Of a stretch of DNA of 64,000 nucleotides, positions 11,079 to 37,400 are shown in pieces. Numbering within the stretch: position 1 is the first letter of the stretch; every line of letters begins with the position of its first letter. The DNA is taken from positions 26,186 through 90,185 of the forward strand of contig JAKEFB010000091.1 of assembly GCA_022616275.1 (NCBI GenBank). Direction: 5' to 3'. The position numbers and the translations under genes were made by a program. Below the pieces are notes generated by a model. The model worked only from the letters and a program-made list of their open reading frames with translations. It had not been told where the DNA came from and did not search any database. This DNA comes from Chloroflexota bacterium. GTDB lineage: Bacteria > Chloroflexota > Anaerolineae > Promineifilales > Promineifilaceae.

Positions 11079-12737
11079 ATGTACCCATTAGAAAAAGCCC
11101 TGCACGACCATGACCTGATCGTGCTCCGGGTCATCGGCGAGTGGTGGGAACTCGACCTGACCGGGGCTGACAAAAACGCCTCGGTGAAAGCGCTGGCCGA
11201 AGCCCTGGGCCGGTTAGACATGGTCCAGGAGGCCAGCTTCCTGGGGCCGGACGAAGCGGCCGCCCTGGAAGCGCTGGTCGCTGCCGGGGGGCGCATCCCC
11301 GTCGCCGTCTTTGAACGCGAACATGGCCTGGTGCGCCTGATGGGGCCAGGCCGGCTGGAACGGGAGGAACCGTGGCTGGAGCCGGTTAGCCCGGCCGAGG
11401 CCCTGTGGTACCGGGGCTTTTTGTTCCGGGCCTTCGACGAGACCGGCGAGGAATCAGGCCAGGAGCTAGAGGAGTTTTACTACCTGCCGGACGAGCTGCT
11501 GGCCCGCTTTCCTCAGGCCGGCCAGCCGGCCACCCCCGGCCGCCAGCCGTTGTCGCCCGTCCCCCCACCGCCGACCTTTACACCGGCCGCCACCAGCGTG
11601 GTAGACGATCTGACCGCCATCCTGGCCGTGGCCCAAATTATGCCGCTCAAGGAAGACAACCTGGCCTGGTTATCGGCCACGCTGCTGGACCCCCACCCGG
11701 AGCGGCGCTCCCTCCTGGTCACCCTGGCCTGGGAAATGGAATTGCTGCGCAAGACGGACGAAGGCGCCCGGCCGGCCCGCGCTGCCCTGGCCTGGCTGAA
11801 AAAGAGCCGGGAGGCCCAATTGCGCGACCTGGCCGAGGCCTGGAGTAGCAGCGCCTGGAACGAGCTGGGCCACACCCCCGGCCTGGCCTGCGAGGGCAGC
11901 GGCTGGCAAAACGACCCCATCTTGGCCCGCACCGCTCTCCTGGACGCCCTGCCCCGCACGGCCGAATGGTACCGCCTGGGCGACCTGGTAGCCCAGATCA
12001 AAGAGAGCGACCCTGACTTCCAGCGGCCCGGCGGCAACTATGACACCTGGTACATCCGAGACCTGGCCGCAGACGCCTATATTACCGGTTTCGCCAACTG
12101 GGACCTGGTCGAGGGCCGGCTGCTGCGCTTCCTGGTCCAGGGGCCGCTGGCCTGGCTGAGTCTGGCGGAACTGGCCCCCGACGGCCAGAGCTATCGCCTG
12201 GCTACGCGAACCGTGGAGTGGCTGAGCGGCCATCCCCCGGCGGCCGAAGAAGTCAATGTGCCGATCGTCGTCCAGGATGACGCCACGATTTTGGTCCCTT
12301 TTAACGCCGACCGCTATCACCGTTTCCAGGCGGCCCGAATCAGCCAGGCCGAGCCTGTCCAGCCGGGCAAACCGTTCCGCTACCGGTTGACGCCTCACTC
12401 CCTGGCCGAGGCCCGGGAACAGGGTATTGAACCGGAGCGGGTGCTCCAATTCCTGGCCGAGGCCAGCGGCCGGCCGTTGCCGCCCAGCACCCGGCGGGCC
12501 ATTGAGCGTTGGGCTGAACAGGGGACCGAAGGCCTGCTGGAGCAGGTAGTGGTCCTGCGCGTGCGCGAGGCCGACATCCTGGCCAGGCTGCGGGCTAACC
12601 CCAAGACCAGCCTGTACCTGGGCGAATTTCTAGGCGACCTGGCCGCCCTGGTGCGCCAGGACGAGTGGCCCCGCCTGCGCCAGGCTGCCGCCCAATTGGG
12701 GCTGTTGCTGGACGTGGATGTTGGGGAGGGAGATTAG
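11079..12737 (+). CDS. XPB/Ssl2-like helicase-associated domain protein
   Basis: The 552-residue protein lacks Walker motifs. Its C-terminal third matches the helicase-associated XPB/Ssl2 N-terminal-like domain found in actinobacterial and Chloroflexota proteins: 'VPIVVQDDATILVPFN', then 'PFRYRLTPHSLAEAREQGIEPERVLQFLAEAS', 'PLPPSTRRAIERWAEQ' and 'VLRVREADILARL'. The N-terminal part includes a winged-helix-like segment (residues about 5-75) and a Pro-rich linker near 155-175. Its cellular role is unknown; a DNA-repair or DNA-binding role is inferred from the family name. The last codons (GEGD, then TAG) lie in a GAGATTA-type repeat tract, so the C-terminus is partly repeat-derived. Confidence 0.75.
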   Translation: MYPLEKALHDHDLIVLRVIGEWWELDLTGADKNASVKALAEALGRLDMVQEASFLGPDEAAALEALVAAGGRIPVAVFEREHGLVRLMGPGRLEREEPWLEPVSPAEALWYRGFLFRAFDETGEESGQELEEFYYLPDELLARFPQAGQPATPGRQPLSPVPPPPTFTPAATSVVDDLTAILAVAQIMPLKEDNLAWLSATLLDPHPERRSLLVTLAWEMELLRKTDEGARPARAALAWLKKSREAQLRDLAEAWSSSAWNELGHTPGLACEGSGWQNDPILARTALLDALPRTAEWYRLGDLVAQIKESDPDFQRPGGNYDTWYIRDLAADAYITGFANWDLVEGRLLRFLVQGPLAWLSLAELAPDGQSYRLATRTVEWLSGHPPAAEEVNVPIVVQDDATILVPFNADRYHRFQAARISQAEPVQPGKPFRYRLTPHSLAEAREQGIEPERVLQFLAEASGRPLPPSTRRAIERWAEQGTEGLLEQVVVLRVREADILARLRANPKTSLYLGEFLGDLAALVRQDEWPRLRQAAAQLGLLLDVDVGEGD

Positions 12738-12790: not shown

Positions 12791-14527
12791 ATGAGGAGAC
12801 CTCCTTCGACCCATTGGACGGCCGGCGTCAGGTTGCTGGCGACTGGCCTTTATCGCCAGAGCCGGTACACCATGGGTTGGCTCTGGCGCTACTCCCAGGT
12901 GGCCGATGGCGTGGCCATCAGTCGCAACCTGCGCCTGCCCATGCCCGATGGCGTCACCCTGGCTACCGACCACTACCGGCCGAAGGCCCAGGGCGCCTTC
13001 CCTACTATCCTGATCCGTACCCCTTACGGGCGCGGCGGCCTGCTTGGCATGAGGCTGGCAACCATGGCCCGCCAATTTGCCGCGCGCGGCTATCACGTCA
13101 TCTGCCAGGACGTCCGGGGCTGTTTCGATTCCGGCGGCCGGTTCGATCCCTTCGTCCAGGAATTGGCCGACGGGCAGGCGACCCTGGAATGGATTGCCCG
13201 CCAGCGCTGGTTTAACGGCGCGGTGGGTCTCTGGGGTAGCAGCTATGTTGGCTATACGCAATGGGCCACAGCCGTCTCCGGTTCTTCGTTCGTCAAAGCC
13301 ATCGTCCCGGCGGTGACGCGCTCGGACGTCAACCTGCTGGCCGAAGAGACCTTTCCCCTGGACCTGACGCTGCGCTGGTCTATGATTATGGACACGCTGT
13401 TGGACGACGGGCAACTGTCCCGGTGGCAGCGGTTAAACCGACTGGCCAACCGGCGAGAGCAGGAGCGGCGCCTGGCCAGCGGTTTTGCCCATCTGCCCCT
13501 GGGCACGGCCGACGCGGCTGCCACCGGCCGGCCGATCCCCTTTTACCGCGCCTGGCATGAACACATTCACACCCGGAGCGCTTACTGGCAAAGTGTTGAC
13601 CTCAGCCGGCGTATCGCTTCGGTGGCCGCGCCGGCCCATTTTGTCTCCGGCTGGTACGACGTCTTTTTGGATGGACTGCTGCGGGATTTTGCCCTACTCC
13701 GGGCCGCCGGCCGGAGCCCTTACCTGACTATTGGCCCCTGGCGCCACGTAGACCCTGATTGCCAGCAAGAAGCTTTCCACCAGGGCCTGCCCTGGTTTGG
13801 CACCCACCTGAAGGGGCAACCAGGCCACCTGCGGCCGTATCCCGTTCGCCTTTTCGTCATGGGGGCCGGGGAGTGGCGCGACCTGGATGCCTGGCCACCG
13901 CCGGCCCAGACCACGCCCTACTACCTGCACGCCGGCGGCCGCCTGGCGTTGGCTACGCTGGCCAGGGACGACCCGGCCGACCACTACCTTTATGACCCGG
14001 CCAATCCCACTCCCAACCTGGGCGGCCCGTTGCTCGCCCTGGACGCCGGCCCGGTAGACAATCGCTTCCTGGAAGCCCGGCCCGACGTATTGACCTACAC
14101 TACCCCGCCACTCACGGCCGACGTGGAAATTATCGGCCCGGTGCAACTCGTTATCTTCGTGTACTCCAGCCTGGAACACACCGATTTCTTCGGCCGCCTG
14201 TGCGACTTGTATCCTGACGGCCGGTCTATCAATCTCTGCGACGGGCTGATCCGGGTCCAGCCCGGCCGGGGCGAACGGCAACCTGATGGCAGCCTGCGCC
14301 TGGTGATAGATATGGTCGCCACCGCCCATCGCTTCCTGAAAGGCCACGCCATTCGCCTGCAGGTTTCCAGCGGCGCCCACCCCCGCTTTGCCCGCAACCT
14401 GGGCACCGGCGAGCCTTACAGCCACAGCACGCGGGCCGTAGCGGCCGAACAGACCATTTATCACGACGCGGCCCACCCCTCGGCCGTCATTCTGCCCGTT
14501 ACCGGTGACTGTCACTTCAGCAAGTGA
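12791..14527 (+). CDS. CocE/NonD family alpha/beta hydrolase (X-Pro dipeptidyl peptidase S15-like)
   Basis: The 578-residue protein has the S15/CocE layout. An alpha/beta hydrolase core carries nucleophile S151 in 'GSSYVGY' and the oxyanion/Tyr region 'RTPYGRGG'. The acid and base lie around 'HFVSGWYDVFLDG' and 'LTIGPWRHVD', and a C-terminal jelly-roll domain begins near residue 410 ('LEARPDVLTYTTPPLTADVEIIGPVQLVIF'). Such enzymes hydrolyse esters or acyl-amides (cocaine esterase, glutaryl-7-ACA acylase, X-Pro peptidase); the substrate here is not predictable. No signal peptide is seen. No clear SD precedes the ATG at 12791; an ATG at 12872 would drop 27 residues and is an alternative. Confidence 0.88.
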   Translation: MRRPPSTHWTAGVRLLATGLYRQSRYTMGWLWRYSQVADGVAISRNLRLPMPDGVTLATDHYRPKAQGAFPTILIRTPYGRGGLLGMRLATMARQFAARGYHVICQDVRGCFDSGGRFDPFVQELADGQATLEWIARQRWFNGAVGLWGSSYVGYTQWATAVSGSSFVKAIVPAVTRSDVNLLAEETFPLDLTLRWSMIMDTLLDDGQLSRWQRLNRLANRREQERRLASGFAHLPLGTADAAATGRPIPFYRAWHEHIHTRSAYWQSVDLSRRIASVAAPAHFVSGWYDVFLDGLLRDFALLRAAGRSPYLTIGPWRHVDPDCQQEAFHQGLPWFGTHLKGQPGHLRPYPVRLFVMGAGEWRDLDAWPPPAQTTPYYLHAGGRLALATLARDDPADHYLYDPANPTPNLGGPLLALDAGPVDNRFLEARPDVLTYTTPPLTADVEIIGPVQLVIFVYSSLEHTDFFGRLCDLYPDGRSINLCDGLIRVQPGRGERQPDGSLRLVIDMVATAHRFLKGHAIRLQVSSGAHPRFARNLGTGEPYSHSTRAVAAEQTIYHDAAHPSAVILPVTGDCHFSK

Positions 14528-14617
14528 CAGTCACCTGTTAATACCTTTGTAAGGATCAGGCGAGCGACTTGTAACGCCTGGCGGCTACGATAGCAACTCA
14601 AGGAGGACGATTGGCTC

Positions 14618-15322
14618 ATGCAACGATCCCAATCACCCATCACCGATTACCTAATTACCAATTACTCAATTACCAACCCTAAACGCCACAGCGCCGTTCC
14701 TTACATCCGTCCGGCCGCCTTCTTTATCCTGGGGCTGGGCCTGGCCGCCTGCTCGGCCGTCTCCCGGCCGGCCGGCCAGCCCCAGTCGGGCAATCAGGGC
14801 GGCGTCGAAGTCATTGCCTCCGGCCAGGTGGATGTGCCGCCCACCCCGACCCTGGCGGTCGAAGAACTGCCCGACCTGGGACCGGCCCCGGAAATTAGCA
14901 ACGATCTGTGGCTCAACACCGACGGGCCTCTCCCCCTGGCAGCCCTGCGGGGCAAGGTCGTGCTGGTCGAGTTCTGGACCTTTGGCTGAATTAACTGCCA
15001 ACGTGTGATTCCCTGGGTCAGGGAATGGTATGACAGGTACGAGGGTGAGGACTTCACCGTTATTGGCGTCCACTATCCCGAATTCAGCTACGAAGAAAAG
15101 GTCGAGAACGTGCTGGCCGCCACCGAGCGCCTGGGGGTCAACTACCCGGTGGCCATTGACAATGACGGCGTCACCTGGCGCGCTTACGAGCAGCGCTTCT
15201 GGCCCACCCGCTACGTCGTGGACAAGCAGGGCCACATCCGCTACAAGCACATTGGCGAGGGCGCTTACGTCGAGACCGAGGCCATTATCCAGGCCCTCAT
15301 GGCCGAGCCGGACCCCCCATAA
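14618..15322 (+). CDS. Probable selenocysteine-containing thioredoxin-fold (TlpA/DipZ-like) lipoprotein
   Basis: Translating through one in-frame TGA (14987-14989) gives a coherent 234-residue lipoprotein. Lipobox LAAC puts the lipidated Cys at 45. A linker of about 60 residues follows, then a redoxin domain: 'VVLVEFWTFG-U-INCQRVIPWVREWYDRY', 'TVIGVHYPEF', 'GVNYPVAIDND', cis-Pro segment 'FWPTRYVVDKQGHIRYKHIGEG'. In DipZ/TlpA-like relatives the active site is WTFGCINC or WTYTCINC, so the TGA replaces exactly the first Cys, giving U124-I-N-C127. A hairpin with a GGT loop starts 18 bases after the TGA. Both halves are intact, which argues against decay. The SD is AAGGAGG. The N-terminal leader is partly built from AATTACC repeats. 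A caller treating TGA as stop would split it at 14989/15005. Confidence 0.8.
14629..14677. repeat. AATTACC heptamer tract inside the start of the selenoprotein gene
   Basis: CCAATCACCCATCACC is followed by GATTACCTAATTACC, AATTACT, CAATTACC in near-perfect 7/8-base steps. It encodes residues of the n-region of the signal peptide, so the repeat is translated here. Confidence 0.75.
15008..15026 (+). promoter_or_regulatory. SECIS-like hairpin downstream of the in-frame UGA
   Basis: Perfect 8-bp stem ATTCCCTG (15008-15015) / CAGGGAAT (15019-15026) with apical loop GGT. There are 26 bases between the UGA (ends 14989) and the loop. Bacterial SECIS elements lie within the coding region just after the UGA, with a G at the start of a small apical loop (E. 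coli fdhF has loop GGUC). Position and loop fit; SelB binding is not shown. Confidence 0.6.
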
Positions 15323-15363: not shown

Positions 15364-15699
15364 GTGCAAGCGCAAGAATTGCCGGATGCTGACGGTTTCG
15401 TCGCCGCCGCGCCGGCCGACGCAATCCGGACAGACCAGATTACAGCGGTGGAAATTGCCGGCCGGCCGCTCATTTTGACCCGCTGCCAGGGCCGCGTTTA
15501 CGCCTTCTCTGCTCGCTGCCCCCACGCCGCCGGCGACCTCTCCCAGGGGACACTCTACCGGGGCCGGATTGACTGTCCCGGACACGGCTACCGCTTTGAC
15601 GTGGCCACCGGCCGGGTCCTGTGGCCGGCCGACGAGATTTGCCGGCTCAAACAGTACCCCGTCAAGGAAGAGGACGGGGTCATCAAAGTAAAAGTTTAA
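15364..15699 (+). CDS. Rieske [2Fe-2S] ferredoxin-like protein
   Basis: The 111-residue protein has the Rieske cluster ligands C52-x-H54 ('RCPHAAGDL') and C71-x2-H74 ('DCPGHGYRFD') in the usual beta-sandwich frame ('AVEIAGRPLILTRCQGRVYAFSA' before, 'VLWPADEICRLKQYPVKEEDGVIKV' after). Such small stand-alone proteins act as electron carriers, often for oxygenases, or as NirD-like subunits. No signal peptide is present, so it should be cytoplasmic. The start is GTG at 15364; no SD is seen because the -10 box is immediately upstream. It follows the redoxin gene by 41 bp but appears to have its own promoter. Confidence 0.88.
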   Translation: MQAQELPDADGFVAAAPADAIRTDQITAVEIAGRPLILTRCQGRVYAFSARCPHAAGDLSQGTLYRGRIDCPGHGYRFDVATGRVLWPADEICRLKQYPVKEEDGVIKVKV

Positions 15700-15705
15700 C
15701 TCTGG

Positions 15706-15829
15706 GGAAAACCCCGCAGGTTGGGGCACGAAACGTGCCCGCGAAAACTTGCAAGGTTTGCCGGGGGGGTTTTTGCCAGAACAGGCACTCTGCGGGTAAA
15801 ATGCAAGGGCATTTTGTGAAATGCCCTTG
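15706..15829. repeat. Palindromic intergenic elements between the Rieske and PKD protein genes
   Basis: CCCCGCAGGTTGGGGCACGAAACGTGCCC resembles one arm of the element at 17847-17896 and holds GGGCACG/CGTGCCC around AAA. A separate perfect 11-bp hairpin follows: CAAGGGCATTT (15804-15814), loop TGTG, AAATGCCCTTG (15819-15829). There is no U-tract after the second hairpin, so termination is uncertain. Confidence 0.65.
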
Positions 15830-15899
15830 TCCCCAGCCCCAGCCCGACCCCGGCCGGGTTGAAAAGTTTACAGGTTGTCCACCGGAGGAAAAACCAATT

Positions 15900-17816
15900 A
15901 TGAAACGAAACATCTTGCTAAGGATCTTTTTCCTGGCCGTTTTGGCCGCCCTGCCTGCCTCTCTTATCCTTAATCAATTACTTGAGCCGGCCAGCGTGGC
16001 GCGAGGCAAATCGCCGGCCGCGCCCCTGGCCGATGGGTTGACGCCCGAACAACAACAGGCCCAGGACCTGGCCCTGGCCGATTCCCGGGTGCAGGCTTAC
16101 ACCACCGGCCGCCGCTCCGAAGTCTTTAGCGTCCAGCCGGTGGGTCAGCAGTTTACCCAGGCCAGCAGCGCCTGCGCCACGGCCAACTGCTACCAGGTCA
16201 ACATTTACCTCTGGAATGAAAACGCAGCCGTCGTGGCCATTGTAGACGTGACGGCCCAGGTCGTCCGGGACGTCCTCTACCAGCCCGGCATTCACCCCGG
16301 CATTAATGAGCGCCTGGTAGCTGTGGCCCGGGAGATCGTTCGCAACGATCCCCAGGTGGCCGAAATTCTCGGCCACCAGCCGACGGACGAGGAGCTGGAA
16401 ATGCCGCCGATGGAAGGTAACGCTCCCGGCACCTCCTGCAGCGGCGAGCACATCTGCTACGCTTACACCTTTAACATGGGTGACCGTATCCTCTGGGCCT
16501 TTGTAGACTTTCATGAGGAAACCCTGGCCGCCTTGCGCTGGACGCTCATCACCCCCGAAAGCGATCAGGGCATGGCCCACACACCTGACCAGGGCACCTG
16601 CCCCATTAACGGCTCCGTCAACCGCGACGGCTGGTCCATGCAGTACGAAGTGTCCGGCACCGACGGCTACCGCGTCTTTAGCGTGACCTACAACGGCATC
16701 CCGGTCCTGACCAACGTCAAGCTGGCCGAGTGGCACGCCGACTACGGTGGGAGTGGTTACGTGGATTCCACCGGCTGCTCCCCCAGCGGCGGCTTCCCCA
16801 TTTATCCCTACGGCCCCACCCAGGAGCTGGACATCCTCGACGATCAGTCCAACATCATCGGCTTTGAGCTGGTCCAGGACTTCCGCATGGGCAACTGGGG
16901 GAACAGTTGCAACTATCGCTACGAGCAGCACGTCCAGTTCTACGAGGACGGCCGCTGGCGCGTCGTCGCCGGCGCTTACGGCAAGGGCTGCGGCACCAAC
17001 GCCATCTACCGGCCGCTGGTCCGCATTGACGTGGCCGCCAACGGCGACGCCAACGACACCTTTGCCTTGTGGAATGGCAGCCAGTGGGTAGACCAGACCA
17101 ACGAGCTGTACCGGACGCCCTACGCCGGCCCCAACGGCCCCCACAGCTACACTACCGAAGGGTACGCCTGGCGGGTAGTGGACCAGAGCGGTATGGGCTA
17201 TTACCTGGAACCGGGCCAGGGCCAGTTTGGCGACGGCGGCGAAGGCGACGACGCCTTCATTTACGTCGCCCAGCACCACCCCAACGAGGGCGACACCGAC
17301 CTGGGGGCGGTGGGCTCCTGCTGCAACGACGACCATAACCAGGGGCCGCAGCAGTTCCTCAACAACGAGTCTATCAGTGACGAAAACATTGTCATTTGGT
17401 ACGTGCCCCAGATGGTCACCGACGCGTCAGGCCCGGATTACTACTGTTGGACGCTCCAGGGCGAACCCAACCCCATCACCTACCCTTGCTTCGCCGGCCC
17501 CATGTTCGTGCCCATCACCAACGCCGCCTTCAGCCATAACGCCACTGGGCCGGTCCCGGTTGGCAGCACCGTCGTCTTCACCAATACTTCGACCGGCATC
17601 CCGCCGCTTAGCTACGAGTGGGACTTTGGTGACGGCGTGGGCACCTCTACTGAGGCCAACCCTACTTATCAATATACTGCCGCCGGTACGTATAACGTGA
17701 CCCTGACTGTGACCAATGGTGAGGGTACCGAAACAGATACCTTCACCAGCGTGGTAGAAGTTTCAGGAACCAAACAGGTAGTGAATTGGTATTTCCCGAT
17801 CATTATTAAACCGTAA
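15900..17816 (+). CDS. Secreted PKD-domain protein
   Basis: The start at 15900 (MKRNILLRIFF) is supported by ACCGGAGGAAAA and gives a signal peptide (residues 1 to about 28). A longer open frame upstream runs through non-coding palindromes. The 638-residue mature part has a Cys-containing N-terminal domain ('ACATANCYQVNIYLWNENAAVVAIVDV'), a central beta-rich domain with many Tyr/Gly/Asp residues ('GPTQELDILDD', 'GDGGEGDDAFIYVAQHH'), and a C-terminal PKD repeat (about residues 540-630: 'VGSTVVFTNTSTGIPPLSYEWDFGDG' and 'YTAAGTYNVTLTVTN'). The central domain has a faint copper-amine-oxidase feel ('TYNGIPVLTNVKLAEWH' and 'HHPNEGD'), but I cannot confirm the cofactor Tyr. It is extracellular; substrate unknown. 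Confidence 0.8.
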   Translation: MKRNILLRIFFLAVLAALPASLILNQLLEPASVARGKSPAAPLADGLTPEQQQAQDLALADSRVQAYTTGRRSEVFSVQPVGQQFTQASSACATANCYQVNIYLWNENAAVVAIVDVTAQVVRDVLYQPGIHPGINERLVAVAREIVRNDPQVAEILGHQPTDEELEMPPMEGNAPGTSCSGEHICYAYTFNMGDRILWAFVDFHEETLAALRWTLITPESDQGMAHTPDQGTCPINGSVNRDGWSMQYEVSGTDGYRVFSVTYNGIPVLTNVKLAEWHADYGGSGYVDSTGCSPSGGFPIYPYGPTQELDILDDQSNIIGFELVQDFRMGNWGNSCNYRYEQHVQFYEDGRWRVVAGAYGKGCGTNAIYRPLVRIDVAANGDANDTFALWNGSQWVDQTNELYRTPYAGPNGPHSYTTEGYAWRVVDQSGMGYYLEPGQGQFGDGGEGDDAFIYVAQHHPNEGDTDLGAVGSCCNDDHNQGPQQFLNNESISDENIVIWYVPQMVTDASGPDYYCWTLQGEPNPITYPCFAGPMFVPITNAAFSHNATGPVPVGSTVVFTNTSTGIPPLSYEWDFGDGVGTSTEANPTYQYTAAGTYNVTLTVTNGEGTETDTFTSVVEVSGTKQVVNWYFPIIIKP

Positions 17817-37350: not shown

Positions 37351-37400
37351 GGTAATTAAGTAATTACCAATTACTTAATTACCAATTACCTAATTACCAT
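37351..37400. repeat. AATTACC heptamer tract with perfect hairpin
   Basis: GGTAATTAAGTAATT (37351-37365), loop ACC, AATTACTTAATTACC (37369-37383): perfect 15-bp stem, followed by one more AATTACC/TAATTACC pair. It separates the ROK gene from the transporter genes. Confidence 0.88.

Follow-up and report, generated by a model that had tools for sequence, protein, structure and literature searches.

A gene at 14618..15322 (plus strand) of the stretch of DNA analysed here, 64,000 nucleotides of contig JAKEFB010000091.1 from a Chloroflexota bacterium (hereafter the window), almost certainly encodes a selenoenzyme, predicted to be an exported lipoprotein. Judged from its sequence, the product would be a membrane-anchored thiol-disulfide oxidoreductase of the TlpA/ResA/DipZ type with a Sec124-Cys127 active site. 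What points to this in the DNA is a UGA at the nucleophilic position, a covarying hairpin, a complete set of Sec insertion genes in the same assembly and the interchange of Sec and Cys at one position. An initial annotation of the window had proposed a selenoprotein, and this reading is supported by the insertion machinery, by Cys in the orthologues that lack the TGA and by the SECIS-type hairpin.

An in-frame TGA at the active site of a putative redoxin lipoprotein

The frame from the ATG at 14618 to the TAA at 15322 is interrupted by one in-frame TGA (14987..14989, plus strand, residue 124) and is otherwise open. The frame itself, the Pfam matches and the alignment all support a gene for a TlpA/ResA/DipZ-like redoxin of 234 residues with Sec at residue 124. 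A Shine-Dalgarno-like AAGGAGG (14600..14606, plus strand) can be read 11 nt 5' of the ATG. In the context EFWTFG-U-INCQRVIP the TGA occupies the first Cys position of the redoxin CxxC, exactly where the initial annotation had placed it (WTFG-TGA-INC), and both the frame and the comparison of orthologues indicate that it is read as Sec124, the first residue of a UxxC active site. The ORF list breaks the frame into 14618-14989 and 15005-15322, a split of the kind that the initial annotation had expected of standard gene calling.

The read-through product would carry, in this order, a hydrophobic N-terminal stretch, a LAAC lipobox (residues 42-45; 14741..14752, plus strand), a linker and the redoxin domain. 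The lipobox was recognised as a sequence pattern, and Cys45 is probably lipidated. Its column is Cys in 21 of the 22 family rows of our alignment (A1), the sole exception being a row (L044) whose start was set further downstream by script. Invariant in the same alignment are the resolving Cys127 (TGC, 14996..14998, plus strand) and Pro196 of WPT (15203..15205, plus strand), which we take to be the cis-Pro position of the thioredoxin fold. Translation confirmed that the lipobox, Cys127 and the segment WPTRYVVDKQG share one frame, as had been claimed.

With the TGA read as Cys, the protein matched the Pfam families AhpC-TSA (50.8 bits, cut-off 26) and Redoxin (41.1 bits, cut-off 26.6) above their curated cut-offs, and Thioredoxin_8 at 35.2 bits. 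Seven families of NCBIfam release 20.0 were matched at E≤0.001, none of them named as a selenoprotein. The closest solved structure by sequence is the thioredoxin-like domain of DipZ (PDB 5cyy, 2hyx; E 4.2e-42 over residues 82-233), which shows a CINCQR active site in the alignment. DipZ differs in having Cys and not Sec, and its solved chains have 352-360 residues, whereas the window protein has 234 and a lipobox. Solved ResA-type structures are further from the window protein than DipZ. ResA, StoA, TlpA and DsbE are membrane-tethered extracytoplasmic redoxins with CxxC. The window protein resembles them in NCBIfam (ResA 57.2 bits, StoA 35.1, dsbE 26.6, TlpA 25.7) but would differ by Sec at the nucleophile, and all four models stayed below the NCBIfam cut-off (170 for ResA, 210 for StoA and 123.15 for dsbE).

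A degenerate tandem repeat with a 7-base unit (CCAATTA), resembling an array at window 37353-37399, encodes residues 5-20 (window 14629-14676). The sequence ATTACCAATTAC, with up to one mismatch, occurs five times in the window, against 0.10 expected. It looks as if the repeat expanded into the gene at its signal-peptide end.

The same codon is TGA in 48 genomes

The codon for residue 124 is TGA in 48 orthologues from 48 genomes (13 + 5 + 30), and we therefore reject a chance origin. Close orthologues without the TGA had Cys at residue 124 in all 21 cases checked, as the initial annotation had anticipated, so that the in-frame UGA stands where homologues have the catalytic Cys (48 TGA versus 21 Cys genes). 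Within the family, 26 of 53 scanned genomes gave a match at E≤1e-20 and 22 hold a close orthologue (54-100% identity), 13 with one TGA and 9 without. The TGA is the same codon in 13 of 13, and the other nine have TGC or TGT there. A phylum sample of 400 genomes, 80 of which matched at E≤1e-30, adds five close orthologues of the class with TGA (L102, L103, L105, L107 and L109) and four with Cys (L101, L104, L106 and L108). When 397 genomes of the class were sampled, 58 matched at E≤1e-50: 41 have an in-frame TGA, 16 have no stop and one has TAG only. All 41 TGAs fall at residue 124, and four of the carriers (G388, G643, G695 and G753) are single-contig genomes. A scan of public contigs used peptide patterns with Cys at the site and thus favours Cys genes; among its 20 loci a TGA was found in L052 only, a copy of L027. 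One of the 41 class genes with TGA, L157 (G651), has a TAG as well in the matched frame; the Sec gene may be broken there, the frame misjudged or the assembly faulty.

A covarying SECIS-type hairpin behind the UGA

Folding, comparison of orthologues and published model limits together identify a covarying SECIS-type hairpin right behind the UGA, with an 8 bp stem (15008..15026, plus strand). Its sequence is AUUCCCUG-GGU-CAGGGAAU, in which the loop GGU (15016-15018) is closed by the pair G15015-C15019 and lies 26 nt from the UGA; the MFE of the 27-nt stretch is -10.6 kcal/mol. The bacterial SECIS model, as set out in PMC13188914 (section 5), has a loop of 3-9 nt with G in the first two places, a stem of 4-16 bp, a spacing of 16-37 nt from the UGA and an MFE of -7.5 kcal/mol or lower. 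The window hairpin (3 nt loop, 8 bp, 26 nt, -10.6) lies within all these limits. When the window was searched with Rfam at gathering scores, the sole match was a tRNA. Taken by itself, the sequence folds with a z-score of -0.9 to -1.7, and 12 to 33 of 200 shuffles fold as well. This is barely better than the shuffles, and the weight of the argument therefore rests on the comparison across orthologues.

In that comparison at least seven of the eight pairs are kept in 34 of 37 distinct Sec sequences, where 1.9 would be expected under synonymous codon resampling; in 300 resampling runs, at most 6 sequences had this many pairs. Only 3 of 21 Cys orthologues have at least seven pairs (L041, L101 and, with 7, L185; 0.7 expected). 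The alignment of all 48 Sec genes (37 distinct rows) has 94.6% of its cells paired, with double-sided changes in four of the eight pairs (19 cells). The paired percentage, the 19 cells and the covariation score were each reached by none of 500 shuffles, whereas four double-changed pairs were reached in 5 of 500 and the observed number of pair types in 20 of 500. Slid registers on the same alignment gave 62.8% paired at most. The codons coupled in the stem are for the most part Pro CCC and Arg AGG, or Pro CCT and Lys AAG. Another set is Trp-Val TGG GTC, or else Ser TCG combined with GTG or TTG; the Ser version turns the loop-closing G-C into C-G. The first 13 Cys genes to be aligned have 67.3% of cells paired in the same register, a value reached by 19 of 500 shuffles, and 46.2% at most in slid versions. 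Since this register beats the slid ones, the protein sequence or relics must account for some of the pairing.

Three TGA genes depart from the common hairpin. L036 has 4 of its 8 pairs and instead forms another stem, whose loop, GUUC, follows the UGA at 18 nt; L153 and L156 also have 4 of 8 pairs in the common register. Unanchored scans gave less even results. With the published SECIS limits, hits were obtained in 17 of 18 Sec genes of the window gene's own clade, 3 of 18 other Sec genes and 3 of 55 Cys genes. A second rule gave 15 of 18 own-clade Sec, 4 of 13 own-clade Cys, 7 of 18 other Sec and 6 of 42 other Cys genes. The first scan misses L026 despite a hairpin identical to that of L025, and the second scores L029 and L037 on a different hairpin. 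The unanchored scans are thus rule-dependent and noisy, and we relied on the fixed-register tests.

Sec insertion machinery in the source assembly and in relatives

The source assembly is a draft of 8.53 Mb in 309 contigs (98.25% complete, 5.5% estimated contamination). A search for selA, selB, selD and a tRNA-Sec, which the initial annotation had suggested as a check, recovered all four: selA at 569 bits, selB at 334.4 bits (over the cut-off), selD at 365.8 bits on the same contig as selB, and a tRNA-Sec at 70.2 bits, identified by ARAGORN as tRNA-SeC with anticodon tca. They sit on contigs other than that of the window. The tRNA-Sec adjoins a Cys-Gly-Phe tRNA cluster, and among nine relative loci this arrangement is whole in four and partial in two; of the three loci that lack it, two end near the gene. 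The shared arrangement speaks against a stray contig. A second tRNA-Sec match in the same genome (49.4 bits) is a tRNA-Ser, and a score near the Rfam cut-off is therefore not proof. The selD gene of this genome (L146, G000:C60:33807-34742) is likewise interrupted by a TGA (SCAG-U-ASK), and a hairpin follows that codon.

Of the 13 family genomes with the Sec version, 11 have selA over the cut-off together with a tRNA-Sec match of at least 59 bits, and ARAGORN called tRNA-SeC in 10 of the 10 best matches submitted from these genomes. Neither selA nor tRNA-Sec was found in the other two, G010 (85% complete) and G018 (78%). Of the nine family genomes with the Cys version, seven have a tRNA-Sec match of at least 59 bits. 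Because selA is present in all nine, the machinery does not separate Sec from Cys genomes.

Alternative explanations for the interrupted frame

The TGA could be a sequencing or assembly error, or a nonsense mutation in a decaying Cys gene. Broken copies may exist, as L157 with its additional TAG and a Cys-type match with a TAG (G703) suggest, and the comparison was made on assemblies throughout. However, 48 separate genomes, including four single-contig ones, share a TGA at this codon, conservation of the domain extends to either side, and the synonymous sites behind the TGA are held to the covarying hairpin, which is mostly not so in the Cys versions. The initial annotation had argued that decay would rarely strike just this codon; given the recurrence, the conserved domain and the hairpin, we reject error and decay as highly improbable. 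Genome-wide reassignment of UGA to an ordinary amino acid, for example Trp or Gly, would also keep the frame open. Against this, the upstream gene terminates with TGA at 14525-14527, tRNA-SeC (anticodon tca), selA, selB and selD are present, and relatives have Cys at the site, so that reassignment can safely be dismissed. The locus might instead make a truncated lipoprotein and, from an internal start, a separate C-terminal half, for which the ORF at 15005-15322 has its own GTG start, or the UGA might be read through without Sec. Yet the whole thioredoxin domain is in neither piece, conservation continues across the TGA, and in the TGA versions the synonymous codons behind it are held to the SECIS-type stem. 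We therefore give this explanation very little credence and reject it too.

A selenoprotein might also serve mainly to reduce peroxides or other sulfur or selenium species and not to exchange disulfides. The best Pfam match, AhpC-TSA, is to a family that also holds peroxiredoxins, whereas in sequence the protein comes closest to DipZ and ResA-type proteins, and A1 shows no variation at the second Cys of the CxxC. We consider such a main reaction doubtful, though it deserves to be kept in mind.

Predicted mechanism and gene neighbourhood

In the mechanism that we favour, SelB bound to the hairpin would deliver Sec-tRNA to the UGA, and the product would be exported and anchored on the external side of the membrane by a lipid on Cys45. 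The selenolate of Sec124 would then attack a substrate disulfide or another oxidised sulfur species, Cys127 would resolve the mixed selenosulfide, and a thiol donor in the membrane, of CcdA/DsbD type, may re-reduce the Sec124-Cys127 bond. Candidates of this type in the genome come down to one DsbD_TM match (62.9 bits), located 470 bases from a distant Cys-type redoxin paralogue (L022). Its protein is a candidate donor, not linked to the window gene.

The gene lies between an S15 peptidase gene (12791-14527) upstream and a gene for a Rieske protein (15364-15699) downstream. From this locus and 10 hand-picked neighbour proteins at 7 relative loci no operon partner could be named; neighbours at the relative loci include a histidine kinase, an Oxidored_molyb protein, guanylate-cyclase-domain proteins, a DUF427 protein, an AAA/UvrD helicase and others. 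In three genomes a gene for a Helicase_C_3 protein (552-559 residues) precedes the redoxin gene, directly upstream in L058 (2232-3905) and L059 (2112-3791) and two genes upstream in the window (11079-12737). Matches to Cu_amine_oxid below the cut-off lie downstream in the window (15621-17816) and in L053. Both neighbours are weak signs of shared surroundings.

Exchange of Sec and Cys among orthologues

A tree of 91 rows (36 Sec and 55 Cys) was built from 101 matches after removal of one with E above 1e-20 and of nine from duplicate loci (L052-L059, L144). Parsimony places 12 Sec/Cys changes on it, at least 9 of them forced by well-supported branches, and the clade of the window gene joins 18 Sec and 13 Cys rows (support 98/90). 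Reconstructed in this way, Sec and Cys have been swapped repeatedly on the tree. A second, quick tree of 81 rows, with 12 hand-picked outgroup rows and the trait residue masked, gave 14 changes by parsimony, of which 3 are forced by a strict criterion, and its root is weak. For this reason we infer, and do not observe, that Sec is old.

Two Cys genes retain the whole 8-bp stem: L041, with loop GGU and a closing pair that is now G-U, and L101, in which the loop G has changed to C. We read both as probable former Sec genes with relic stems. The family genomes with Cys retain selA and mostly tRNA-Sec, so the swap does not generally follow loss of the machinery.

Further redoxin genes with in-frame TGA

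In genus g351, 14 of 15 Sec genes (L163, L164, L166, L169, L170, L172-L179 and L181) have YNC and not INC behind the UGA (WTYG-U-YNC); the residue after Sec varies there and the stem does not. Family f34 of the phylum holds 16 further TGA redoxin genes in 6 genomes, six with WTYG-U-INC (one per genome) and ten with WTYT-U-PVC. The latter are paired on opposite strands, facing each other, in five of the six genomes (L136-L140), so that each of these five has three Sec redoxins, the WTYT-U-PVC pair and the WTYG-U-INC gene. Two genomes of family f50 (L142 and L143) have WTFC-U-INC, with Cys directly before Sec, in frames of 575 and 503 residues, and an AGUU hairpin; their nearest Cys rows in the tree are L018, from the genome of the window, and L048. 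The hairpin loops of the f34 and f50 genes are GGUCU, AGUUU or AGUUG, and AGUU. Of the 16 f34 genes, 15 failed the scan with the published SECIS limits and 11 failed the second rule.

Relation to described selenoproteins and significance

Selenoprotein families of the UxxC redoxin, Prx-like and thiol-disulfide isomerase-like kinds have been listed before, as excerpts of PMC13188914 (Table 1) and PMC9312934 show. The listed 'Redoxin family protein' (PF08534, UxxC; PMC13188914, in part) shares both domain and motif with the window gene, which has a PF08534 domain with UxxC; the comparison with its representatives, HEU0032618.1 and MBA3499694.1 (the latter in PMC9312934), covers domain and motif. 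The 'Thiol-disulfide isomerase-like protein' (cd02966, UxxC) and the 'Prx-like thiol:disulfide oxidoreductase' (PF00578, UxxC) have fold class and UxxC in common with the window protein, as described in the same table of PMC13188914. The initial annotation had called the protein undescribed. This does not hold for the kind, since UxxC redoxin selenoproteins are listed; it stands for the Chloroflexota lineage, of which we found no description in the literature searched, as far as the excerpts go. A Chloroflexota lipoprotein of this kind is not named in the portions searched of PMC13188914, PMC9312934, PMC1088965, PMC2398784, PMC1794560, PMC5029168 or PMC5736913 (formate dehydrogenases). The words 'chloroflex' and 'lipoprotein' each have 0 occurrences in the review PMC13188914, and all searched terms have 0 occurrences in PMC12013277. 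In the part of the 2006 survey available, 3 selenoproteins of 3 families are counted in Chloroflexi (PMC1794560). A survey of groundwater covering more than 44,000 MAGs, in which selenoproteins were numerous, is mentioned in the excerpts of PMC13188914 and might already hold this lineage.

The kind of protein is therefore known, and the Chloroflexota lineage adds an unusually rich record of Sec and Cys. According to the same excerpts of the 2006 survey, Sec gave way to Cys 15 times across four families, chiefly in formate dehydrogenase and selenophosphate synthetase (PMC1794560), and the 2026 review, in the portion at hand, still calls such events rare (PMC13188914). With TGA in 41 of 58 strong matches from the 397-genome class sample, this appears to be a common active-site selenoenzyme. 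A gene caller that treats TGA only as a stop cuts the gene in two, and the selenoenzyme may therefore be missing from annotation. On balance we lean towards the view that Anaerolineae and other Chloroflexota hold a large number of exported TlpA-type selenoenzymes that annotation has missed, among which Sec would be old and often swapped for Cys with the machinery kept, leaving relic SECIS stems in Cys genes. Because close relatives carrying Sec or Cys mostly retain the Sec machinery, their two versions can be compared in matched pairs to learn what makes a lineage keep or lose Sec, and the relic hairpins point to the direction of the change.
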